Shown in pieces: positions 6,700-55,935 of a DNA stretch of 64,000 bases. The position numbers were made by a program, and so were the translations under genes. This DNA comes from Erinaceus europaeus. Taxonomy: Eukaryota > Chordata > Mammalia > Eulipotyphla > Erinaceidae. The notes under the pieces are model-generated. The model had not been told where the DNA came from and ran no database searches. It saw only the letters and a list, made by a program, of their open reading frames with translations. The stretch covers positions 90,455,016-90,519,015 of the forward strand of contig NC_080171.1 of NCBI RefSeq assembly GCF_950295315.1. The letters run 5' to 3'. The first letter of the stretch is position 1. Each line of letters starts with the position of its first letter.

Positions 6700-8340
6700 G
6701 GGGGGTTCCCGGAAGATGGCAGACTGAGAAGCTGCTAGTGGCTTGAGCTCTGACCACATCTTCTGGAAACAGTAGGATTTTCTGCCTTTAGTAGGCCAGT
6801 CAATAAGGGGTCCTAGCGGTGACACCAAGGGAGTGACTATAACTTAATTTGGGTAAAAATATAGAGTAGGAAAAAAGGGAAAAAATTTTTTTTCTTTCTT
6901 TTAAGCACACCTCCTCCCCCTTGCTCTCCCCCATAACCAATTCCTGGGGACCAGCTCCTAGCAGGCTCCCCTGCTGAGCCCCTTTCTTTACCAAAATTCC
7001 TGTCCCACCAGGGAGTATCATTCATTCTAAGTCTATACCCTTCTTAAACCTCTAGCCTTTTTTCTTTCTAAGTAGCCAACCCCCCCACCTCACCCCCATA
7101 GCTAATTAAATAATTAAAAATAAATAAATAAAAAAAACCTCTTTCCTTTCACCACTCTTTTATGACTGTTCTTTTTCTTATCTTTTTCTTTTTTATCTCT
7201 CTTCCTTTTTTTTTCTTTTTCTCATTCTTGCCATCCTTTCTTCCTTAATCCTACATCTTCCAAAGCCACAGGTCCCATCCCCCACACCACCAAACAGTGT
7301 GCTTTTTTGAATTCACTGATACACATTTGGCATTTATTTTGGGGAAGAATTCTGACTCAGAGTTGGACTCTCACTGGGAGTATCTCTGATCAACATCCCT
7401 TCCTCCTTTAGCTACCCCTAGAATATACAGTGGATAGTAGATCTACAGAACTGTCTATTTCAGCTATCCTTGTCTAGTCCTGAGGTTTTTTTTTTGTTTG
7501 TTTGTTTGTTTTTCTCTTTCTTAACAATCAGCAGCCTCTGATCACGAGATTTGAGGTAATCTGGGACAGGGTTTTTTTTTACCCTGCTCTATTTTATTAT
7601 TAATATTATATAAAGGCATATATCTTACCCCACCCCTTTAGGTTGATCAGAATTAACTCTTAGGATATCTTTCATTGATAGGGTAGTGGGCATCTTATCT
7701 ATTATGGGAGGAACTTGTCTCATTACTCCTACCTCCTCTACAGACTCTCCCCTACCTCATCCTCCTAGCTAAATAAAAAAATTAAATTAAATTAAATTAA
7801 AAATAAAGTAATAAACAAACCCTTTCCTTTCACTGATTTTTAATTAAAGCTCTTTTTCTTATCTTTTCTCTTTTCTCTCTCTTGTCTCTTTTTTCTTTTC
7901 TTTTTTTTATCTTGTCATACACTTCTTCCTTCCTTCTTCTTTGCCTTTCTTAATTTGTGAATTATTTTGGGCAAGAAATCTGATTCAGAGTGGATTCTCT
8001 ATGTGTGTATCTCTGCTCTAGTTACCTTTGCCCTCTTGTTACCCCTAGAATATACAGTGGATAGTAGATTCACATAACTATGTATTCTTGCTATCCCTTC
8101 TTTCTTTCCTCCTTCTTCTTTACTGGGATTTGGTTACTATTTTTTTCACGGACTGGAGACATTGTTTGGCTAACTGGTAGTGATTAAACTGCTTCAATAC
8201 TTGCTTCAGTTGCTACTGTAATTCCTGAGGTTGGTGAGTGCAATTGTCATAAAGGTATTTAGTACAGGGTTACTTGTACTCAAGACACAACAACTGAGGA
8301 ACAACAGAGCATAAAAAAGAGAAACACATAAATCAAAAAA
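6700..8340 (+). promoter_or_regulatory. L1 5'UTR with two tandem modules
   Basis: Two related modules lie in tandem, about 7075-7735 and 7740-8120. Both have the order 'agctaa(t/a)taa', 'ctctttttcttatctttt'-type pyrimidine tract, 'tctga(c/t)tcagagt', then 'ccctagaatatacagtgg' (7416 and 8042). The offset is 627-667 bp depending on the point compared. The L1 5'UTR is known to hold an internal Pol II promoter, so the modules are presumed promoter units (inference). It has long pyrimidine tracts and a (gttt)n stretch near 7493-7512. Confidence 0.7.
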
Positions 8341-9259
8341 ATGGGTAGATCAAAAACAAATAAAACTGCTACTCCAATGAATGAAGACAAAGGCCCAGAA
8401 GAAACTACAAATCAGCCAGAAGTAACCATAGATAAGAAAAGTATGCAAGCAATAATAAACTTATTAATCACAGAAATGAAAACAACATTGGAGGAAAGGA
8501 ATGGCAGCATTAGGGAAACAACAGTTGAGACCCCCAAGGAAAATACTGATTATCTTGAGGCAATTAGAGAACTGAAAGCTGAAATAGCTGTAATGAAGAA
8601 AGAAGCTGAGGCAAGGGAAAGCAGCCTAACAGAAACAGAAAACAGAATTAGTCACACAGAGGATGAGTTAGAGAAAACTAAGAAAGATGTGAAAGAGCTT
8701 AAAAAGAGATTGAAAGACATTGAAAACAACAACAGAGACATATGGGATGATCTCAAAAGAAGTAACATTCACATAATTGGCCTGCCAGAGGAAGAAAGAG
8801 AGGAAGGGGAAGCAAACATTCTAGAGGAGATAATAGAAGAAAACTTCTCAGACCTGAATAACAGAAAGGATATCAAGATTCAAGAGTCCCAGAGAGTACC
8901 AAACAGAATCAACCCAGACCTGAAGACACCAAGACACATCATAGTCACAATGAGAAGAAGTAAGGATAAAGAAAGGATCCTAAAGGCTGCAAGAGAGAAA
9001 CAAAAAGTCACATACAAGGGAAAACTCATAAGATTATCTGCAAACTTCTCCACTCAAACTCTAAAAGCCAGAAGAGAATGGCAAGATATCTATCAAGCCC
9101 TGAATGAAAAAGGGTTTCAAAAAAGGATAATAAATATATCCTGCTAGACTTTCATTCAAACTAAATGGAGGGATCAAAATCTTCTTAGACAAACAACAGT
9201 TAAAGGAGGCAACCATCACCAAACCGGCCCTGAAAGAGGTTCTAAAAGACCTCTTATAA
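8341..9259 (+). pseudogene. L1 ORF1 (RNA-binding trimer protein), frameshifted near C-terminus
   Basis: ORF1p is the nucleic-acid chaperone that coats L1 RNA in the ribonucleoprotein. The frame from ATG 8341 gives 268 residues. Residues ~65-135 form a heptad-rich coiled coil (ELKAEIAVMKKEAEARESS). Then comes the RRM-like region with 'NIHIIGLPEEE' (~141-151), and the C-terminal domain with 'TPRHIIVTMRRSKDKERIL' and 'FSTQTLKARREW'. The stop at 9145-9147 is premature. Compared with the antisense copy near 29530, there is a 4-nt insertion (an extra 'aaat'-like step) at about 9127-9138. In the next frame the normal C-terminus continues ('GGIKIFLDKQQLKEA', 'KPALKEVLKDLL') to a TAA at 9257-9259. The unbroken form would be about 305 residues, in the family range. 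The ATG sits in an A-rich context that fits L1 ORF1 starts. Confidence 0.93.
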
Positions 9260-9323
9260 ACAAGAACATCACTAGAATACTGGCAATATATCAGAGCAAA
9301 CAAAAAAAAATTTTTTTTGTACA

Positions 9324-9949
9324 ATGGCACTACAATACATTAAATCCATAATATCAATAAATGTCAATGGCTTAAACTCACTCATCAAAAGGCACAGAGT
9401 TGGGGGATGGATCAGTAAACATAATCCAACCATATGCTGCTTGCAAGAATCCCATCTGTCACAACAAGATAAACACAGACTTAAAGTGAAAGGATGGAAA
9501 ACTATCATACAGGCTAACAGACCACAAAAAAGGGCAGGAACAGTCATTCTCATCTCAGACACAATAGATTTTAAATTAAATAAAGTAATAAAAGATAGGC
9601 AAGGACATTACATAATGATTAGAGGATCAATCAGCCAAGAAGACTTAATAATCATTAACATCTATGCACCCAATGAGGGACCATCTAAATAAGTCAAGCA
9701 CTTACTGAAAGAATTTCAGAAATACATCAATAGTGATACAATAATAGTGGGAGACTTCAATACCCCACTCTCACACTTAGACAGATCAACAAAGCAGAAA
9801 ACCAACAAAGATAAAAGAGAATTCAATGAAGAGATTGGCATACTAGACCTCTTGGACATTTTCAGGGTCCTTCACCCCAAAAAACTGGAATACACCTTCT
9901 TTTCAAATCCACATAAAACATACTCAAGGATAGACCACATGTTAGGCCA
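9324..9949 (+). pseudogene. L1 ORF2, endonuclease N-terminus only
   Basis: ORF2p supplies the apurinic-type endonuclease and reverse transcriptase for target-primed reverse transcription. ATG 9324 begins 'MALQYIKSIISINVNGLNS'. Endonuclease motifs are visible: Asn in 'NVNGLN', catalytic Glu in 'CCLQESHL', 'NIYAPN', 'GDFNTPLS' and 'SRIDHMLG'. An in-frame TAA at 9690-9692 interrupts it once, and the frame is otherwise maintained to 9949. There the ERV LTR cuts it at about codon 208. The RT and Cys-rich domains are absent. Confidence 0.93.
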
Positions 9950-10229
9950 TGTTGTTTTAACCGAGCTGGCTTCACGGGTGGGTAACAGAGACAACCAGAG
10001 ACACGCAGCTGGGCCGGGAAGCTGTATTTCTTTATTCACAAACAACGATTCATAAACTAACCCAAACTAAGAACTCTCCTGCATCCTTCTCACATGGCAG
10101 CACCAAGAAGTCTCGAAATCTGTTGGGGTTCTTTGGGGCAGGGCCAAGCGGGCCCACGAAAATAGCAGGACTAAACCAATTTTCCTGGCAGGGGGAGAGC
10201 TAGACCAAACCAATGTAAAGCATACAACA
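9950..10229 (-). repeat. ERV 3' LTR (type 1)
   Basis: On the minus strand it runs from TGTTGTATGC (10229) to GTTAAAACAACA (9950). A poly-A signal AATAAA (minus) lies at 10031-10036. It directly follows the polypurine tract at 10230. It is about 280 bp long, shorter than the 392-bp LTR at 14350-14741, and different in sequence. Confidence 0.8.
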
Positions 10230-11295: not shown

Positions 11296-11381
11296 GGCCT
11301 GAGGGGGCCATTTTTTGCCTCTGTGGGCAAAACTTTATCAGCTTAAAAAAAAAATTCTTGCCTCTTGGGGGCCGTACTTGC
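11296..11381. repeat. 86-bp direct repeat, copy 2 (at pol breakpoint)
   Basis: This is the second copy of the repeat at 10383-10468, 913 bp away. Pol homology stops exactly at its edge (11382), so this repeat marks the deletion or template-switch junction. Confidence 0.9.
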
Positions 11382-12085
11382 ATTAGGTTTTAAGGGACGA
11401 ATTTGCATTAGAGAAATCTCTGAACCTAGGAAGGATATTGGAGGGATTAGCTGTATCTTCTCAGGGGCTACATTAAGGACACTTTTCTTTAATGCAGGAA
11501 TGAGAAAATCACGTAAGGCATAGAGATCTGTATCTGATTTTCCCCATATTAAAATATCATCTGTATAATGAAAAATATTAAGGCCCTTATGAATATATGG
11601 GACAAGGGCAGATTTAACAGCCTCCTGACAAATTGTAGGACTATTGGCCGTACCCTGGGGCAGCACCACCCATTCAAATCTATCAGCAGGGCTGGCGTTA
11701 TTAATAGATGGAACAGAGAAGGCAAAACGTTTACAATCTCGCGGATGCAAGGGGATAGAGAAAAAACAATCTTGTATATCAATAGCTATGATTGGAATTC
11801 CTGTGGGAATTGCAGAAGCAAGAGGCAAACCCCTTTGGGGGGAGCCCCAGACCTGCATGGTTTTATTTACTGCACGGAGATCTTGAAGGAGGCACCATTT
11901 TCCCGAGCGCTTTTTAATCACAAAGACAGGAGTATTCCATGGGCTTCGAAAATGACGAATGTGTCCTAAGGACAACTGCTCTCGGACGAGCTCTTTTAAA
12001 ATTTTTAGCTTATCCCTAGGTAAAGGCCACTGTTCCACCCAGACAGGCTCATTAGAAAGCCAGCTTAAGCGGGGTGTTTGGCTAC
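11382..12085 (-). pseudogene. pol: ERV pol: reverse transcriptase fragment
   Basis: The longest frame starts at 12038, but the RT homology begins slightly upstream. Fingers and palm motifs are in order: 'SPWNTPVFVIKK', 'LLQDLRAVNK', 'AIDIQDCFFSIPL', 'LPQGTANSPTICQ' and the active site YTDD (11556-11567). Betaretroviral RTs normally have YMDD or YVDD. Homology ends after 'LGSEI' where the 86-bp repeat starts, so the RT thumb/connection, RNase H and integrase are missing. Upstream of it lies protease in the usual pro-pol order. It cannot encode a working polymerase. Confidence 0.92.
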
Positions 12086-12097
12086 GAACAGTGGCAT

Positions 12098-12445
12098 TTA
12101 GTATTGGGGGTGCTGAATAGACCTGGTATCGCGGGAACGAGTTTTACACTCTGCAGAGGCATCTGTGGATATCCTAACATCAAGACATTCCAGAAGATCC
12201 CTGCCCAGTAAGTTGGTGCTAATATTAGCTACCAAAGGGCGGAAGTGTCCGGTAGAACCTTCTGGGTCTTCCCACATGAGCGAGTCTCGTGTGCAAAATG
12301 CTCTGGTCATCCCTCCTATTCCATGTAAACTGGGTCCAGGGATAAGTTCCCAATCTTGGGGAACCTCTTCTTGCCTTAAAATCGTCCTTGCTGCCCCCTT
12401 ATCAATCAAAAATTTAAAAGGAATATTGCCAATCTTTACTGTCAT
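12098..12445 (-). pseudogene. pro: ERV aspartic protease, active-site variant
   Basis: Retroviral protease cleaves Gag and Pol precursors. The frame shows 'KFLIDKGAARTIL', where the conserved triad should be D-T/S-G. Here it is D-K-G (codons near 12389-12405), which should inactivate the enzyme. The flap-side region and the C-terminal 'LLGRDLLE' (G-R-D/N motif) are retained. It lies between NC and RT, as in betaretroviruses, where pro has its own frame. The tail after 'GRDLLE' is degraded. Confidence 0.88.
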
Positions 12446-12509
12446 AGAAGGGTGGCCCTGTTCTAAAACAGGAGTGGTCCAAAAATCTCAGGCCCCGAAT
12501 TTGTACCAT

Positions 12510-13148
12510 TCAGGGGTGAACCATCTTTATGAAATTGGGACCAACAATCTCTCTTCCAATGAACCCCTTATGACATTTTGGACAAACAGTACGTGGTCTC
12601 TGGCTCCCTGACTGAAAGCGGGGTTGCTCTAGCTGGAGGCGTGGTTTCCCTGACTGGAGGCGTGGTCGCAACTTATCAGGACATTGGTTACGCCAATGTC
12701 CTTGGCGACCGCACTGAAAGCAGGCCCCATTTTGCTTACGTGGGGCAACTGCATAGACCTGCGTCATAGCGGGTGCCCCATAATTGCCTGATGTAAGTTC
12801 CTGTGTCGCTAGAATCCAATTATCAGGGTGTAGGTGTTTAAGATTAAGGCATACCTGACGGAATTGTGGTGTCATGCCTTCCCAGACAATAGAGTGCAGG
12901 AGTAGTTTGCGGACGTCAGGATTATAAACCTTTCTCTCTAAGCTTCTCTTCACCCTTGAGATGAAGCTCGCCAATGATTCATCAGAGCCTTGGTGAAAAG
13001 AGTTAATGGGAGCTGACGGATCTACATCAGGTGTGGTCACCCTTTCCCATGCTTGTGTTGCACAGATGCGTACCTGTTCAAAATAACCGGTTGGAAACCT
13101 GGCTTCTGCCTGCTGAGCTCCAGATTCATAAGCTCCTGCTCCAAACAA
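12510..13148 (-). pseudogene. gag: ERV gag: capsid C-terminal part and nucleocapsid
   Basis: Capsid has the major-homology-region-like stretch 'INSFHQGSDESLASFISRVK' at residues ~48-67, followed by the C-terminal domain. Nucleocapsid has one perfect CCHC zinc knuckle, 'CFQCGRQGHWRNQC' (about 12680-12723). A second knuckle begins 'CPKCHKGF' but loses its His/Cys after a frameshift. The frame opens in the middle of capsid, so the ATG at 13148 is not a real start. Upstream capsid sequence continues with breaks to ~13370. Confidence 0.9.
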
Positions 13149-13373
13149 AGCATCAGAATTCCATTCTACCTGTTTGTTACAATTTTCCTGCGATTGCCTA
13201 GAGCACTCGTCACAGAAGCATGCCTGCCACTGAAGATAGAGTGGGTCTGGGAGTGCAGCACCAGCCAGATCTTTCCAGTCTTGTGGTGTATTTAAATGCT
13301 GGTAAAAAACTCCTCAAGATGGACTTGGTCCGTGGAGAATGCATTCCGTCCTCCCTGACTGCTTGTCTGAGTG

Positions 13374-21689: not shown

Positions 21690-23466
21690 TTATTTATTTA
21701 TAAAAAGGAAACACTGACAAAACCATAGGATAAGAGGGGTACAACTTCACACAATTCCCACACCAGAACTCCATATTCCATCCCCTCCCTTGATAGCTTT
21801 CCTATTCTTCAACCTTCTGGGACTATGGACCCAAGGTCATTGTAGGATGAAAAAGTGGAAGGTCTGGCTTTTGTAATTGCTTCCCTTCTGAACATGGACA
21901 TTGACAGGTAAATCCATACTCCCAGCCTATCTCTTTCTTTCCTAGTGGGGCAGGTTCTGGGGAATAATACCTCCAGGACATATTGGTGGGACTGTCTGTC
22001 CAGGGAAGTCTGGTTGGCATCATGCTAGCATCTGGAACCTGGTGGCTGAAAAGAGAGTTAACATATAAAGTCAAACAAGTTGTTGACTAATCATGAACCT
22101 CAAATTCTGCAGTAGTGCAGTTAAAGAGTTGGGTGGGGTGGGGGGGTCTCCATTTTGCAGATAGCTAGTAGGCATATTTTAGTTATATTCCAAAGGGCCT
22201 ATGGATATAGTAGTGTGTTTTTTTTTTTTTTCCTCTGAACCTGAAATCTTATATGCAGGTGGAAACAAGTTATTGTCTGGGGAGATAACGTCATGGCTGG
22301 AAAAAAGGACCAGAAAACTGGATCATGGAAGAGAGTAGCTCCCTAATATGAGAAAGGGGTATAAATATTGTTGATTGTAAACTCCATTGATTTGATGTGA
22401 TCTGGGGTCCATAGTTAGCTTAGGAGCCTGTGTGACCTCTGTGTCCCTGTAGACCAGAGCTCACATTCTGTGGTTATGAATAGGAACATTCCATATTGCC
22501 CCAGTAAAGACCTATCTTGCTCAGGTATAGGATAAAGTATGTTGTCCATCCTCCCTTGGGAGTATGGAACATTCTCTACCATTGCTGATCCAAGTTGAGG
22601 GCAAGGTCCTATGGAGGCCCACAAAGGGTTCTGTTTTGTTGTTCCTGATAGAAATGACCAGTAAAAATGGACAGAGGGATTTATTCAAGTTCTAGGCCCA
22701 TCAAGTATGTTTAGGAATCTCAGGACTCCCAAATTAGGGCCCCAGCTGATGGAATGGCCTGATAGTGACTAAAGAGTCATTGATAAAGTATGCCCGTCTC
22801 TTGCCTTTATTCAGCTTTAGCAGTCCTTGCTTTGATAAGGTTAGCTTTGAAGTATGTGAGAGAATATAATAAGAAGTAGGTGAGTATGGTATCTAAGTCT
22901 AAGTAGACACTATTTCATTATCAACTTTATGCTGACTCACTCCAGACTATTGTGTACTTTTGCTTTCAGGTATATATTTTGCCCTAATTTATGGATACAT
23001 GTGAACATGTACCCTATCTTATGGGACCTGGTTTATATCTAGGTTTTGGGACTTTGTTATGAAGTGAACCCACCTGGAATGGAATTAGAGAATCCTATGA
23101 AAGGAAAGGTCTCACCTGAATAATGAGGCTGAAGGGTTGACATTCCATGTCATACATCTCTGGACAGTCTGAAGTGAACCATGTTGATGTGGTACTCATG
23201 CGTTGATCAGGTTGGGATCAGCAGATGCAATATTATTTGGTATGAGTTGAGAGAAGCATGCAGGAAAGTGAGACCCACCCTAGAGGTTCCAGTACTAGGG
23301 AAAATAAAGGCTTTATAGAGGAAGTGGGAGTTTCCATCTATATTAGGTTTTAAGAAGGCAATAGACAGTTAAAGCTATAATTACATTACTTGGCAATTGA
23401 AATATCCCATTGTTAGGATTTGCTGTATCATACACAACATCACCATAATTAATGTCCTTTAACATT
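21690..23466 (-). repeat. Long L1 3'UTR (distal part)
   Basis: This is the fullest 3'UTR copy in the window and the reference for the many tails listed elsewhere: 'aaaaccataggataagagg', 'ttgggactatggacccaagg'-type text (21818-21840), 'aggttgggatcagcag'. With 25004-25380 the 3'UTR is over 2 kb, very long for L1. It is non-coding. Confidence 0.8.
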
Positions 23467-23477
23467 ACTTGTATATA
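23467..23477 (+). repeat. Target-site duplication, left (acttgtatata)
   Basis: An 11-bp sequence identical to 24993-25003, flanking the CR1/Jockey-group LINE fragment. In the paralogous L1 copies (30570-30590, 33960-33975) only one copy of this site is present. Confidence 0.93.
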
Positions 23478-24992
23478 TGTGGCTGACCATCTCATTGCCT
23501 CCCTGGATGCAGCACGATCCTCCCTGGATCCCACTGGCAACAACTCATGGAAAGTCTGAACTTCACCCACTCAAGTAGGAAGGCCTGGAAGCTTCTTCAT
23601 AGTCTGGGTGCTGGTAGCCAACCCTCTCCCGTCTCCCATCCTCCCGTATCTCCAAACTCAGTGGCCAGTCACCTAACTCAAGTTGGTCGTGCTAAGATCG
23701 ACCCAGTCTGGAAAAGAGAAATTTCCCATGAGTGGTCATCCCACTTCCGTTTATCTTGTCCATCTCCAAAACTCTCTTCCTTTACACTGTCTGAACTGGA
23801 AGACGCTTTGAAGAGGGTTAAACCGGGAACGGCTTCTGGCTACAACAACATCACCCCAGAACTCATTCTTAACATGGGCCCCGTGGCAAAGAAGTGGCTC
23901 ACTACATTCCTGTCCCACATCTTGGAATCCGAATCTATGCCCAAAATTTGGCGTTGTGTGAAGATAATAGCAGTTTTGAAACCAAAGAAAGACCCAACAC
24001 TGGCCGCCAGCTATAGACCAATTTCTCTCCTCTCCATGTGTTACAAACTCCTTGAGAGGCTGCTTCTGTCACTTATTTCTCATCTTACAGAGAAATTCCT
24101 ATCACCCGCCCAAGCTGGTTTCCACCCAGGAAGATCTACCTGCGAACAAGCCCTGGCCCTCTCAACTTACATTGAAAATGGATTCCAGAAGAATTTAAAG
24201 ATGGGTGCTGTCTTTGTTGATCTCACAGCAGCCTATGACATGGTCTGGCACCATGGTCTCCTAGTCAAGATCTCAAGATGCCTGCCTCCATGGGTGGCCA
24301 ACAGAATCTTCTGTTTCTTCTCCAAAACAGAAGATTCCGGGTGCATCTGGGTGACAAGTCTAGCAGATGGAGACTTGTCTCAAATGGCCTCCCCCAGGGC
24401 TCTGTTCTGGCTCCTACACTATTTAATATTTACATCAATGACCTTCCAGAAACTTCTTCAAGGAAGTTCATCTACGCCGATGACATCTGCTGTGCAACTC
24501 AGGCATCCAAGTTTGACATCCTCGAGGAAACACTCATGAAAGACATGTCTCTGATATCTGATTAGTGTAAAAAATGGTGACTAATCCCTAGCACTGCAAA
24601 AACGGTATCATCTGTTTTCCATCTACACCATGCCTCGGCCTCGCGTGAGCTTAATGTGCAGTTTGACGATACAAGAATGCGGCATGAAGCCCAGCCAGTC
24701 TATCTTGGCGTTACTCTTGATCACACCCTGTCATTTCATGAACATCTCATAAAAACTGCAGCAAAGGTGGGCACAAGGAATAACATCATTGCAAGACTGG
24801 CCAGCTCCTCATGGGGTGCGAACACTTCCACACTACGATCATCATCTCTGGCATTATGCTATTCCAACCATGACCCACATAGTCAACGACTGCCACCTCT
24901 CCAGATTCAAAGGAGGTCTCGAAACTTTACATCAGGCTCAACCTGATGCTGTTGACTGGCTACGGAAGAAGGGCAAATGCTAGAAGAAGAAG
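23478..24992 (+). pseudogene. CR1/Jockey-group LINE fragment (reverse transcriptase), 5'-truncated and broken
   Basis: A non-L1 LINE polymerase inserted in the antisense L1 3'UTR. The open frame at 23547-24539 (its ATG is internal, not a real start) begins in the linker before RT ('NFTHSSRKAWKLLHSLGA'). It continues with RT motifs 'VKPGTASGYNNITPE', 'YRPISLLSMCYKLLERLL', 'AQAGFHPGRST' and 'VFVDLTAAYD' (catalytic Asp region). A frameshift near 24305-24315 moves the homology to the second frame, with 'LPQGSVLAPTLF' and the intact catalytic FIYADD (YADD at 24473-24484). Stops follow at 24563 and 24581, then 'VYLGVTLDHTLSFHEHL' and 'LALCYS'. Near 24867-24873 a deletion joins directly to the C-terminal end 'THIVNDCHLSRF...AVDWL'. 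The 3' end is (gaa)n-like at 24981-24992. The endonuclease domain is absent. The Y-R-P-I-S-L-L and F-V-D-L motif style is that of CR1/Jockey-group elements of invertebrates, not L1 or BovB (family knowledge). Clade assignment needs a tree. Confidence 0.9.
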
Positions 24993-25003
24993 ACTTGTAT
25001 ATA
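24993..25003 (+). repeat. Target-site duplication, right (acttgtatata)
   Basis: The exact partner of 23467-23477. L1 3'UTR sequence resumes at once with 'gctgtaccaccggttgc'. Confidence 0.93.
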
Positions 25004-25379
25004 GCTGTACCACCGGTTGCTTCTGTTCTCTAAGCTTTTAAGAGAGTCAACATATCAAAAACTCAGCATATGTGCATTAAGAAGTTTGAAACATTCAATC
25101 AATTTCCCCCTATAGTAATTAAATAGAGATTTATATGACTTTAATTAATATGAATGTACATAAACATCGTACCTACAAACAAAAGACTGTGCACATTCCA
25201 CTCCACCCACTCCCACCAGTGAAGCTGAACATCCACCCTCACACTCAACCCAGGGTTTTCACTTTGGTGTCCTACTCTAGATTTAGTCAGATCCTGCTTT
25301 TATTCTTTCTCAAATTCTGTTGATGAATGGGATCATCTCATTCTCATCTTTATCTTTCTGACTTAGCTCACTTAACATA
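25004..25379 (-). repeat. L1 3'UTR (proximal part)
   Basis: Continues the host L1 after the insertion: 'atagctgtaccaccgg', 'ggttttcactttggtg', 'cagatcctgctttta', up to the start of the ORF2 coding end. Confidence 0.8.
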
Positions 25380-28200
25380 ATCCCTTCTAGCTCTGTCCAA
25401 GATGGCTCAGAGAAGCTGGATTCATTATTCTTAATAGCAGCGTAATATTCCATTGTGTATATATACCACAGCTTTCTCAGTCAGTCATCTGTTGTTGGGC
25501 ACCTGGGTTGATTACAGGTTTTAGCTATTACAAATTGTACTGCTATGAACATAGATGTACAAATACACATATTTTTTGGTTAGGTATTATGGAGTCCCTT
25601 GGAGGGGCATTATTGGGTCATATGGAAGATCCATGTTTAGCCTTGTGAGAGTTCTCCAGACTGCTCTCCAAAGAGGTTGGACACATTTAGATTCCCACAA
25701 GCAGTGAAGAATGGTTCCTCTGTCCCCACAACCTCTTCAGGATTTGTTGCTACTGTCCTTTTTGATGTATGCCATTCTCACAGGGTTGAGGTGGTATCTC
25801 AGTGTTGTCTTTATTGCATATCTCTTATAATCAATGACCTGGAGCAATTTTTAATTTGTTTGTCAGGCTTTTGCATCTCTTATGTAGCAAATGTTCTGTT
25901 CATATCCTCTGCTAATTTTGCTTTTTTGTTGCTAAGATTGCTGAGCTCTTTGTATATTTGATTACTAGTTTCTTGTCTGAAGTATGGCATGTGAAGATCT
26001 TCTCCCATTCTGTGAGGGGTCTCTTTGTTTTTGTGATAGTTTCTTTGGCTGTGCAGAAGCTTTTAAAACTGATGAAGTCCCATTGATTTGTTTTTGCTTT
26101 AGTCTTCCTTGCAATTGGGTTTGTTTCATCAAAGATGTCCTTGAGGTTTAGGTGGGAAAGTGTTTTACCAATGTTTTCCTCTAAGTATTTGATCATTTCT
26201 GGTCTAACATACAAGTCCTTGATCCATTTGGAGTTATTTTTGTTTCTGGTGAGATAAAGTGGTACAGTTTCATTCTTCTGCATGTTTCAATCCAGTTTTC
26301 CCAGCACCATTTATTGAAGAGAGCCTCCTTCCTTCATTTAATACTTTGGGCCTCCTTATCAAAGATTAGATGTCCATAGGTGTGGGGCTTCTGTTATGGG
26401 CTTTCAATTCAATTTCAATGGTCTGTATGCATATTTTTATTCCAGTACCAGGCTGTTTTGATGATGATGGCCTTATAATATAGTTGAGATCTGGGAGTGT
26501 GATGCCTCCATTTCTGTTTCTTTTCCTCAAGATAGTTTTGGAGATTCTAGGTGTTTCCTGGTTCCCGATTAATGATTTTAGTTTTTGTTCTATTCTCTTA
26601 AAGAAGTTTGGTGGAACTTTGATTAGTATTGTCTTAAAGTTGTATATGACTCTGAGAAGAATATTCATTTTGATGGTATTAATTCTTCCATGAACATGGG
26701 TTGTCTTTCCACTTCTTGGTGTCATTTTCTATTTCCTTGAAAAGAAAATGACTCATACTTTTCAGTATACAAATTTTTCACTTCTTTGGCCCAGTTTATT
26801 CCAAGGTATTTTGTTTATAATGCTGCAACAGTGAATGGGAGTGATTTCTGTATGTTTTCTTCGGATTTATTATTTTCATAAAGAAATGCCACTGATTTTT
26901 GTACATTCATTTTGTAGCCTGACACCTTGCTATATTGCCTAATAACTTCCAGTAGCTTTCTGCTGGATTCTTTAGGTTTTTCTATGTATACTATCACAAC
27001 ATTTGCAAATAGTGAGAACCTGACTTCTTCCTTTCCCATCTGCATTCCTCCTTTGACTTCTTTCTTTTATCTGATTGCTATGTCAAGAACTTTCAATACT
27101 GTTTTGAAGAGTAATGGTGATAGTGGACAGCCCTGTCTCATCCCTGATCTGAGGGGGAATGCTTTCAGGTTCTTTTTGTTGAGTATGATCTTGGTTGTAT
27201 GTTTGCTATATATGGACTTCATTATCTTGAGGAATTTCCCATCTAGTCCCATTTTTTGCAGTGTTTTGAACATAAATGTGTGTTGGATATTGTCAAGGGC
27301 TTTCTGTGAATCTATTGAGAAGATAATCACGTGGTTTTTGGTTTTGCTTTTATTGATGTGGTGAATGACATTGATTGACTTAGGTATGTTGAACCATCCT
27401 TGCATTCCTGTGATAAATTCTATGTGGTCATGATGAATAATTTTTTTTGATATTCTGCTGTATCCTGTTGGCTAGGAACTTGTTTACTATTTTTTTTCTT
27501 GTTTACTATTATGGCATACTATCTATGTTCATCAGAGACATTGGTCTGTAGTTTTCATTTTTTGTTGTGTTTCTATCTACTTTTGGTATCAGGGTAATGT
27601 TGACCTCATAGAAGGTGGAAGGTTGTGTTCCTGTTTGTTCAATCTTGTGGAACAGCTTTAGATATTTAATTATTAACTGTTTCCTGAAGGTTTTGCAGAA
27701 TTCGTTTGTAAAGCCATCTGTTCCAGGACTTTTGTTTTTGGGAAGACTCTTAATAACTGTTTCAATTTCTTTGTCTGTGATTGATGTATTTATGTTTTGT
27801 CATGTTTCTGGAATTCTTCCATTTCATAGATGTTTTGCATGATTTTCTGTATTTCTGTGGTGTCAGTTGTGATATCTTCTCTATCATTTACAATTCTATT
27901 TATTTGAGTCTTATCCCCCCCTTTTTTTTTAGAGAATCTGCCTAGGGGTTTGTCAGTATTGTTTAATTTTTCAAAGAACAAACATTTGGCTTCATTGATC
28001 TTTTGTAGTTATTTTTGTTCAGTTTTGGAAGAGCATATGTTTCTAGGAATTCTTCCATTTCTTCCAGATTCTCTAGCTTGATGGCCTATAGTTCTTCAGA
28101 GAATTTTTGAGTGATTTTCTGGATTTCTGTGGTATCTGATGTGATATCTCCTCTATTGTTTACAATTCTATTAATTCGAGTCTTCTACCCCCATCTTTTC

Positions 28201-28242
<42 letters not shown>

Positions 28243-29359
28243 TTTCTTTCTTTCTTTCTTTCTTTTTTTTTTTAGTGAGTCTGGCTAGGGGTTTTTCAAT
28301 CTTCAAAGAACCAACACTTGGCTTCACTGGTTTTTTTGTATGTTTCCTTATTTTTGATGTTGTTTATTTCTGCTCTAGTTTTAGTGATTTCTGTCCTTCT
28401 GGTTGCTTTAGGGTTCCTTTGTTCCTTAAGATGTGCAGTAGAGTCAGTTATTTGAGCTTTTTCTTGTTCTCCAATGTGTGATTGTATGACTATGAGTGGG
28501 CCTCTCAGTACTGCTTTAGTTGTGTCCCAAATATTTTGATGGCTTGTGTCTTTGTTTTCATGTGTTTCCAGAGAGTGCCTCTCTGACCCAGAATTTCTTA
28601 AGCAGCATGTTGTTAAATTTCCAAATTTTGTGACTTTTAGTAATTTTATCTTTGTTGTTGAATGTTATCTTTTCTCCACTGTGCTCTGAGAAGATACTTG
28701 GGATGATTTCATTGCTCTTGAATTTGTTGATACTGTCTTTGTGGCCTAACATATGGTCTATCCTTGAGGATGTGCTGTGTGGATTTTAAAAGAATGTGTA
28801 TTCCAGTTTTGTAGGGTGAAGAAATCTGAAAATGCCCAGGATGTATAGTCTGTCCATCTCTTCATTTAATTCTCTTGTTTCTTTGTTGATTCTTTATTCA
28901 TTGATCTAAGTGTGACAGTGGGATATTGAAGTCTCCCAATATTATTGTATTATTATTGATGTATTTTTGTAGTTATTTCAGTAGTGTTTGATGTATTTAG
29001 ATGGTCCTTAATTGGTTTCATAGATGTTATTAATTGTTAAATCTTCTTGGTTGATTTATTATCTGATAATTATGGAATGTCTTTCCCTATTTTTTATTAC
29101 TTTATTTAATTTAAAGTCTATGGTGTCAGAGATAAGAATGGCTGTTCCTGCATTTTTGTGTTCCATTAGCCTGTATGATACTTTTCCATCCTTTCACTTT
29201 AAGTCTCTGTTTGTTTTGTTGGATCAGGTGAAAATCTTGCTCACAGCATATGGCTCGGTTGTGTTTTCTTATCCATCCTCCCACTCCTTGTCTCTTAATG
29301 GATGAGTTTAAGTCATTGGTGTTTATTGACATTATGGATTTGATGTATTGTAATACCAT
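25380..29359 (-). pseudogene. L1 ORF2 (endonuclease-RT), degenerate
   Basis: The N-terminus at 29359 ('MVLQYIKSIMSINTNDLN') shows the endonuclease start. The catalytic Glu motif QE(S/T)H reads 'EQDFHL', so Glu is replaced by Asp. RT pieces: 27405-27067 ('[18 protein letters not shown]', '[18 protein letters not shown]') and 27045-26815, where the F-A-D-D box reads '[11 protein letters not shown]', losing both catalytic aspartates. C-terminal pieces lie at 26725-26366 and 26283-25912 ('LNLKDIFDETNPIARK', 'TEWEKIFTCHTSDK'). Many stops and frameshifts are present, so it cannot be active. The order and the ~4-kb span fit a complete ORF2. Confidence 0.93.
27795..28345 (-). repeat. Tandem duplication within L1 ORF2, with (CTTT)n
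   Basis: 'ggaattcttccatttc' (27808 and 28046), 'gatttctgtggt'-type text, 'gatatct(t/c)ctct', 'tttacaattctatt' and 'ctaggggtttt(t/g)' occur twice in order. The unit is ~240-300 bp. The second copy contains a (CTTT)n run at 28196-28268. Confidence 0.82.
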
Positions 29360-29519: not shown

Positions 29520-31432
29520 GAATGAAAGTCTAGTGGGATATATTATCCTTGTTTGAAACCCTTTTTCATTGAGGGCTCGATAGATATCTTGACATTCTCT
29601 TCTGGGTTTTAGAATTTGAGTGAAGAAGTCTGCTGATAGTCTTATGGGTTTTCCCCTGTATGTGACTTTTTGATTTTTCTCTTGCAGCCTTTAGGATCCT
29701 TTCTTTATCCTTATTTTTTTTTCTTTTTTTTTAATGTTGTTTTAAAATTTTTATTTATAAAATGGAAATGTTAACAAAACCATAGGATAAGAGGGGTTAG
29801 AATTCCACACAATTCCCACCATCAATACTTATATCCCACCCATTCCCCTGATAAATTTCCTATTCTTTAACCTTCTAGAAGTATGGACCCAAGATCATTG
29901 TGGGATACAAAAGGTGGAAAATCTGGCTTCTATAATTCCTTCCAGCTGAACATGGGCGTTGACATGTCTATGCATACTCCCAATATTCTCTCTCTTTCCC
30001 TAGTTTAGCTCCAGGATACATTGGTGGGGTTGTCTTTCCCGGGAAGTCTGGTTGGCATTATGCTAGTATCTGGAACATGGCTGCTGAAAATAGAGTTAAC
30101 ATACAAAGCCAAACAAATTGTTAACCAATCATCAACCTAAAGGCTGGAATAGTGCAGATGAACAGTTATATCCAGGTTTTGAGACTTTGTTAGGAAATGA
30201 ACCACCTGGAATGGAATTAGAGAATTCTATGGAAGGAAAGGTGTCATCAGACTAATGAGGCTAAGGGTTGACATTCCATGCCTGACTTATCTGGACACAG
30301 TCTAAAGTGAAGCATGTTGCGGTGGTACTCATTTCATTAACCAGGGTTGGATTGGTGGATGCAATATCATTTGGTATGAACTGAGAGAAACATGCAGGAT
30401 AGTAAGTACAACACTAGAGTTTCAAGGACAGGGGGAAATATAGGGCTTAATGAGACAATAGATATTTATTGCTATAATAACATTATTTTGCAATTGGGTT
30501 ATATTTGAAATACCCCCTTTTGATAGAATTTGCTGTATCATACACAACATCACCATAATTTATATCCTTTGACATTATTTTTATATAGCTGTGCCACCAA
30601 TTGTTTCTGTTCTCCATGGTCTAAGCTTTTAAGATAGTCAGCATCTCAAAGAATCAGCCTATGGTCTGTGCACTAAAAAGTTTGAGACATTCAATCATTT
30701 TCCCCCTCTCATATTAATTAAATAGTGATTTATATGACTACAAATTAATAGTAGTCTACATAAATAAATAGGAGTGTACAAACTTCTTATCATTGTAACT
30801 ATGATATGTCTTAGTGCCTTAAGGTCTGAATTGATTATTTTTGGGACTCTCTGGGCCTCTTAAATCTTATGTCCTTTCTGTTGTTTAAGTGTGGGAAGTT
30901 TTCTTCTATTATTTCCTTTAGATTGTTTACCTCCCCTTCCTCTTTTTCTTCTTTTTGTAGGCCAAGTATATGAACGTTATTTCTTTTCAGATCATCCCAT
31001 AGGTCTCTGTTGTTGTTTTCAGAGTCTCTCAATCTCTTTTTGAGCTCTTTTTCCTTTTTCTTAGTTTTCTCAAGTTCATCCTCTATCTAGCTAATTCTGT
31101 TCTCTGCTTCTGTTAATCTGCTTTCCCTTCCCTCTGCTTCTTTCTTCAGTTCAGTTATACTATTGACTTTTTCTGCAAATTGACCTTTTACCTCAGACAT
31201 TTCATCTTTCAGTTCTCAAGGTAACTAGTATTTTCCTGAGGGTCTCACCTGTTGTTCCCCTGATTCTGATAGCCCTTTCCTCCATGGTTGTGTTCATTTC
31301 TGTGATTATTAGGTTTACTATTGCTTGCACAATTTTCTTATCTATGGTTACTTCTGACTAATTTGGAGTTTCTTCTTGGCTTTTGTCCTAACTAATTGTG
31401 ATAGCAGATTTATGTGCTCTTGATTTAACCAT
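29520..31432 (-). pseudogene. L1 ORF1, split by another L1 tail
   Basis: The start region lies at 31432-31430 (plus-strand cat). The piece 31032-30835 reads 'NNNRDLWDDLKRNNVHILGL' and 'EEGEVNNLKEIIEENF', clearly the ORF1 middle. The C-terminal part (29710-29530) is recognised by alignment to 8950-9145. Between them lies a foreign L1 tail (29716-30781). The coiled-coil part at 31040-31330 has stops. This copy lacks the 4-nt insertion seen in the sense L1. Confidence 0.9.
29716..30781 (-). mobile_element. L1 3'UTR insertion (antisense) inside L1 ORF1
   Basis: It starts at a T-rich tract (A-tail reversed, 29716-29742), then 'aaaaccataggataagagg', 'aagtatggacccaagatc', 'gaatggaattagagaattc', 'atgcaatatcatttgg' and 'ctcatattaattaaatag'. 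It is 5'-truncated and shorter than the host 3'UTR, with an internal gap. ORF1 homology resumes at ~30782. Confidence 0.88.
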
Positions 31433-55124: not shown

Positions 55125-55935
55125 ATATTCTTTTTAAATATAATTTTATTTAAAAAATGGAAATTCTGACAAGACCATAGGATAAGAAGGATACAATTAC
55201 ACACAGTCTCCACCACCAGAACTCCATATTCCATCCCTTCCACTGATAGCTTTCCTATTATTTATCCCTCTTGGGGTATGGACCCAGGATCATTATAGAG
55301 TGCAGAAGGTGGAAGGTCTGGTTTCTGTAATTGCTTTCTCACTGAATATGGGTATTGACAGTTTGATCCATACTTTCAGCCTATCTCTCTCTTTCCCTAG
55401 TGGGACAGAGCTCCAGGGAGGCAGGGCTCCAGGACACATTGCTGGGGTCATCTACCCTGGGAAGTCTGGTTGGCATCATCTGGAACTTGGTGGTGAGTAA
55501 TGAGGCTGAAGGATTGACATTCCATGCCTGACGTCTCTTGACACAGTCTGAAGTGAAGCATGTCGAAGTGGTACTGGTTGCACTGATTAGGTTGGGGTCA
55601 GCAGATTCCTTATCAGTTGGTATAAATTGAGAGAAGCATACAGGAAAGTGAGCCCCACTCTAGAGGTCTCAGGACTGAGAGACATATGGGCTTCATAGAG
55701 AAAGTGTGATGTTCCTGATATCTTAGGGTTTAAGGAGGCAATAAATAGTTACTGCTATAATCAAGTCACTTGACAGCTGGGTTAATTTTGAGAATCCCAT
55801 TGTTATGATTTGCTGTATCATACACAACCTCACCAAAATTTATAGCCTTTAATGTTATTTATGTATAGCTGTATCTTATAAAGTTATATCACTGGTTGCT
55901 TTTATTCTCCTTAGTCTAAGCTTTTGGGTCAAAGA
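55125..55935 (-). mobile_element. L1 3' end (antisense)
   Basis: An A-tail reversed at 55133-55155, 'agaccataggataagaagg', 'ggtatggacccaggatc', 'tctttccctagtgggac', 'gaagtgaagcatgtcg', 'atttgctgtatcatacac' and 'tagtctaagcttttggg'. Has an internal deletion near 55495-55500 relative to 21690-23466. Confidence 0.9.

Follow-up and report, generated by a model that had tools for sequence, protein, structure and literature searches.

How did a piece of a LINE that resembles neither L1 nor BovB come to lie within an L1 element of the hedgehog genome, and to what kind of element does it belong? The locus is part of a 64 kb stretch of Erinaceus europaeus DNA on contig NC_080171.1 (the window, that is, the whole 64,000 nucleotides that were analysed). 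The evidence points, with a probability of about 0.92, to an unremarkable dead copy from a young LINE family, most likely the Vingi-1 of hedgehogs, inserted by target-primed reverse transcription (TPRT). Among placental mammals, young LINE families other than L1 and BovB are unusual, and the first-pass annotation of this DNA was right to flag the element, which is real and, for placentals, out of the ordinary.

The inserted copy and its site

The LINE fragment measures 1,515 bp (23478-24992) and is set in the 3'UTR of an antisense L1. The features of the locus are given below, together with the L1 copies of the window in which the same site is empty; P0001 is the closest protein to the element, P0242 another protein relative, and L019 a copy of the family elsewhere in the hedgehog genome.

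22935..28664 (approximate limits), minus strand: host L1, antisense (flank paralogues; RVT_1; ORF2-like pieces by eye)
23467..23477, plus strand: left target-site duplication ACTTGTATATA, an exact 11-bp repeat adjoining the element end
23478..24992, plus strand: 5'-truncated, internally deleted LINE copy, probably of Vingi type (family matches in its own genome; tblastn to P0001 and P0242)
23478..23804, plus strand: remnant of the linker between endonuclease (EN) and reverse transcriptase (RT) (tblastn to P0242 from residue 340 on; mapping to L019)
23805..24865, plus strand: RT region and downstream part (RVT_1 in two frames; tblastn to P0001, 90-91% identity)
24866..24867, plus strand: junction of a 515-bp internal deletion (alignment to family copies)
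24867..24983, plus strand: C-terminal end of the reading frame, with the motif TMTHIVNDC and a stop codon (identical at all 33 residues to P0001 545-577)
24982..24992, plus strand: 3' tail of AAG repeats, without poly(A) (from the sequence; an ending common to the family)
24993..25003, plus strand: right target-site duplication ACTTGTATATA, an exact 11-bp repeat adjoining the element end
30166-30764: paralogous L1 3'UTR with empty site, the cleanest of three
55494-55873: paralogous L1 3'UTR with empty site, the match extending only six bases beyond the site
2020-2499: paralogous L1 3'UTR with empty site, immediately preceded by a distinct gap of about 25 bases

The 3'UTR of the host L1 lies on both sides of the insertion and its ORF2 pieces lie at higher coordinates, with an RVT_1 match (Pfam) at 27070-27471 on the minus strand. 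The first-pass annotation had placed the LINE in the 3'UTR of an antisense L1 with an exact 11-bp target-site duplication (TSD), had stated that paralogous L1 tails lack the insert, and had named four RT motifs. The repeat does stand at both ends of the element, and ACTTGTATATA has just two exact occurrences on the plus strand of the 64 kb window, starting at 23467 and 24993. The insertion site is uninterrupted in all three paralogous 3'UTR copies of the window listed above. All four motifs are located in the copy, YRPISLL (24012-24032) and FVDLTAAYD (24213-24239) in one frame and LPQGS (24389-24403) and YADD (24473-24484) in the next, with coordinates taken from the tblastn alignment. Motifs, duplication and empty paralogues together mean that the earlier description of the insertion, and its coordinates, were right. 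Pfam RVT_1 matches both RT pieces of the copy (E 1.1e-14 and 9.5e-10).

The copy is truncated at its 5' end at about base 1,063-1,064 of the 3,082-bp L019, inside the linker before the RT. Alignment to family copies places a frameshift near 23.52 kb in what remains of this linker, and the RT region contains a second one near 24.31 kb as well as two in-frame stops near 24.57 kb. Truncated, frameshifted, twice stopped and carrying the 515-bp deletion, the window copy is dead. The 5' end of another copy, L012, falls at reference base 1,065, within about two bases of the truncation point of the window copy, probably by chance.

Other elements are scattered through the window. Remains of an endogenous retrovirus lie on the minus strand at 11346-13313, with Gag p24, zinc knuckle, protease and RT in separate stretches, and a partial L1 in the opposite orientation to the host L1 lies on the plus strand at 8332-10052, with a 271-codon ORF1 (Transposase_22) followed by ORF2 endonuclease pieces. 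Matches covering more than 90% of this ORF1 are 36-46% identical to it, among the best 120 of 1,579; the named species in these 120 include bats, pig, horse, musk deer and narwhal, and a hedgehog does not occur in them. A TCTT tandem repeat of 18 units (28201-28273) falls within the antisense L1 region. Searches of the window for Rfam families (at gathering score) and for tRNA genes found neither.

The way in which the copy has decayed bears on its age and on its belonging to this genome. It differs from P0001 at 31 of 390 residues, two of the differences being stops. In a test based on the window codons only, CpG loss in the window copy would account for 16 of these differences and loss on the P0001 side for none. 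There are still 31 CpG sites in the copy, an observed/expected ratio of 0.37, as against 0.05 and 0.06 in the 1.5 kb of flanking sequence on each side. Because this ratio is above that of the flanks and the changes show the CpG-loss pattern, we infer that the copy is of more recent date than the sequence around it and has undergone the decay usual for DNA in a methylated vertebrate germline. Its non-CpG divergence from the family majority is 1.58%, and 23% of its CpG positions have changed. At a mammalian neutral rate of some 2-3 changes per site in 10^9 years, a divergence of 1.6% would stand, very roughly, for 5-8 million years.

CpG decay typical of the methylated vertebrate germline also speaks against a foreign sequence that found its way into the assembly, or a misassembly that joined unrelated pieces. 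Family matches occur on many contigs of the assembly and the TSD lies in L1 sequence of the same genome; the chance of contamination or misassembly is negligible.

The family in the hedgehog genome

The element was used as a query against its own genome (2,720,570,532 bases), and scoring covered 40 of 7,890 first-look candidates. This gave 41 match rows: apart from the window's own row there are 39 places with 94-96% identity, one of which has a short piece at 92% next to it. Twenty matching loci were fetched and 19 copies aligned; the one left out, L026, is rearranged, and its main piece is without the common 3' end. Four of the 20 fetched loci (L017, L019, L023 and L028) match the 3,082 bp of L019 over their whole length, starting at base 1 or 2, and most of the others have varied start points and a common 3' end, L022, L025 and L027 being interrupted or gapped. 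A search via the 3' end gave a second set of 30 loci, in which L029 is the window copy, and in 25 of the 29 further copies the 5' end lies within the fetched stretch, at varying positions. AAG repeats terminate the family copies, at times with extra units past the end of the alignment. Two copies have a structure of their own: L032 has its 5' part inverted, as in twin priming, and L053 has an internal jump of about 1.5 kb with its 5' end kept.

The family is young. Median non-CpG divergence from the majority is 1.25% (n=45 copies) and the median share of CpG positions changed is 10%, in samples that are biased by having been chosen for similarity to the window copy. The divergence figures for L032 (24.4%) and L053 (8.1%), both kept in the median of 45, are inflated, probably because of the inversion in the one and the internal jump in the other. 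Recent activity in this lineage, which the first reading of the DNA had suggested, is borne out by this median and by the 39 other places at 94-96%; the check that it had proposed, of copy number and divergence in the hedgehog's own genome, turned up many young copies.

Full-length members are about 3.08 kb long and have one endonuclease-RT frame. The majority of the 19 aligned copies forms a single stop-free stretch of 995 codons, and single copies have stretches of 288-839. Pfam finds Exo_endo_phos, Exo_endo_phos_2 and RVT_1 in L019, in two pieces, L019 itself being frameshifted. An independent relative, P0262, was also used as a query, with 46 of 68,348 first-look candidates scored by a ranking that favours well-kept copies; all 46 scored loci cover nearly the whole of P0262, at 52-54% identity. 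Their matched frames run across EN and RT for 981-1,054 aa with stops read through. Such stops, counted within the matched frame and exclusive of frameshifts, occur in 45 of the 46 loci and are mostly TGA, and one locus has none. An APE-type endonuclease and an RT in a single reading frame are therefore found both in the 19-copy majority and in the 46 scored loci. No RNase H match at E values up to 0.1 came from a Pfam scan of six sequences, these being the two pieces of L019, which take in all but its last 240 bases or so, and the relatives P0242, P0251, P0262 and P0270 (981-1,003 aa, scanned whole), which likewise have EN and RT domains.

These features leave almost no room for another origin that had been put forward, in which a host gene descended from an element of this kind gave rise to a processed copy. 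Nothing was found in its favour, and it is rejected because the copies are many, with a common 3' end and varied 5' ends, because EN and RT domains are present in the family in one frame, and because the tail is of AAG repeats instead of poly(A); its probability is minute.

The mode of insertion is indicated by the ends of the copies. A TSD of at least 9 bp is found in 19 of 45 copies, the window copy included, and in 2 of 1,980 swapped flank pairs under one scoring; because own pairs reach 9 bp so much more often than swapped ones, the TSDs are above chance. The remaining 26 copies are without a TSD of at least 9 bp under the scoring used. The count leaves out L026, L029 (counted once, as the window copy) and L036, L041, L047 and L054, whose 5' ends lie outside the fetched stretch. 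The hallmarks of TPRT are thus all present: a TSD, a common 3' end, variable 5' truncation and an empty site. Of 20 listed duplications of at least 8 bp, 18 have A as their first base, and AG, AC or AAG is a frequent start, although the scoring lets tail bases into the repeat. Duplications starting in this way resemble the AAG tail, and priming could involve pairing with the tail.

For the window copy, a nick in the 3'UTR of an L1 already in place would have served as the site where the RNA of a 3.1-kb EN and RT element was reverse transcribed. An early stop of reverse transcription would have left the 5' truncation, and a staggered cut would have given the 11-bp duplication. The copy has since decayed, largely by CpG changes, and the 515 bp were lost either during or after insertion.

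The 515 missing internal bases could also be taken as the sign of a different kind of element, a non-autonomous Vingi family made by internal deletion of which the window copy is a member. L053 shows that internally deleted copies exist in the same genome, and eleven non-autonomous hedgehog Vingi families were reportedly described by Kojima, Kapitonov and Jurka (2011). For Vingi-1N3_EE, one article gives 311 hedgehog copies at less than 1% divergence (PMC3183009). However, a 227-base query spanning the junction was fully matched by the window only, among the 40 of 2,602 first-look candidates that were scored. The junction is spanned by the window's own row alone out of 41, the other 40 being one-sided in 39 cases and overlapping the junction by three bases in one. 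A copy with the same junction should have outranked the 40 candidates scored. The deletion is therefore private to the window copy as far as scored, and its use as the mark of a non-autonomous family is not supported; membership of such a family is highly improbable.

Protein relatives and the origin of the family

P0001, from an ENA contig of 2,072 bp, is 90-91% identical to the window copy in the two RT pieces. Among the matches listed (the best 120 of 1,936 and the best 120 of 2,384), the nearest relatives apart from P0001 have about 60-63% protein identity, with P0002 at 61%, and those relatives of P0001 in which the three domains all occur measure 948-1,019 aa. The named relatives in these lists come from a sand fly, psyllids, an aphid, a planthopper, a moth, a pseudoscorpion and one eel, at 42-49% identity. 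Relatives of P0001 were confirmed neither in viral contigs (2 pattern hits) nor in prokaryote genome contigs (32 pattern hits). The nearest matches bear out the claim that this LINE is unlike L1 or BovB; by sequence, the RT has weak similarity to R2 and L1 proteins of solved structure (best E 1.9e-8 for R2 and 2.4e-5 for L1).

A tree of 40 rows, in which the relatives carry no clade labels and the root is a midpoint root only, joins the window copy to P0001 (100/100), then to P0002 and P0067 (99/97), within a set of 20 rows (96/96). A wider group of 23 rows takes in this set and, as a deeper branch, the eel, but none of the rows from insects or the pseudoscorpion. Fewer than half of the columns are filled in five rows, which include the eel and the window copy.

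The youth of the family, and the fact that its named protein relatives among the matches listed are arthropods and one eel, lend some colour to a CR1/Jockey-group LINE recently brought in by horizontal transfer, distinct from the published Vingi family. However, the named relatives in those lists are only 42-49% identical, the arthropod rows fall outside the group of the window copy and the eel branches deeply within it, and therefore no recent donor is seen. Vingi, moreover, is already reported in hedgehogs, and in reptiles (PMC5753468). A recent arrival of a separate CR1/Jockey element is accordingly very unlikely.

For a Vingi family, descent by inheritance is possible, because Vingi is known in hedgehogs and ancient Vingi traces are known in the human genome: X12_LINE is described as such a trace in PMC5753468, and PMC9004415 has one pre-amniote Vingi fossil. 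Hedgehog Vingi elements are named among older likely horizontal transfers in mammals in PMC3183009. Horizontal entry into the lineage combined with members that are still live is an unlikely proposition, the basis for live members being the young copies and the one of 46 scored full-length loci that is stop-free within its matched frame. If it were true, it would provide an active non-L1 LINE in a placental mammal. More eulipotyphlan genomes could decide between inheritance and horizontal transfer, and a chromosome-scale genome lets copy number, age, TSDs and non-autonomous families be measured properly.

Vingi and other LINE groups

Vingi elements are of compact length, have no RNase H and stand, as a clade, on the Ingi side, Ingi itself carrying an RNase H domain. 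Kojima, Kapitonov and Jurka are said to have described Vingi in 2011 as a sister clade of Ingi without RNase H, found in hedgehogs alone among the mammals then sequenced, and to have suggested horizontal transfer. The hedgehog element family was very probably described at that time, and the phenomenon is already known. Like the Ingi/I group, the family of the window copy combines an APE-type endonuclease with an RT; unlike Ingi, it has no RNase H that could be found.

The L1s of the host genome are likewise EN and RT LINEs, and in this case one of them is the target. An L1 of the window differs in having a separate ORF1 (Pfam Transposase_22, 8332-9144). When five relatives were run against the window by tblastn, the family gave no second piece and the L1s gave only weak matches: the endonuclease of a window L1 is matched at 25-26% by P0242 and P0262, and its RT at 21% by P0241.

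Structure and literature fit the Vingi clade instead of CR1/Jockey, the tree having had no clade labels. They suggest the name Vingi for the family, which is set beside Vingi-1_EE by description. The title of the 2011 paper, as cited in PMC5753468, states the relatedness of Vingi to Ingi, and PMC3183009 cites the paper too. Two other articles record Vingi in the locust (PMC3391268) and a Vingi in Anolis (PMC3747384).

In the African hedgehog Atelerix albiventris, 4,476 LINE copies making up 2.232 Mb are labelled 'I-Jockey' in PMC12026660, in which the name Vingi has no occurrence. These are also of a non-L1 LINE class, and the broad label may cover the family described here. From Vingi-1_EE and its non-autonomous derivatives the window copy differs in its internal deletion, seen in no other scored match. 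Its family is, like Vingi-1_EE, a young multi-copy non-LTR element of a hedgehog, compact, with EN and RT in one frame and no RNase H.
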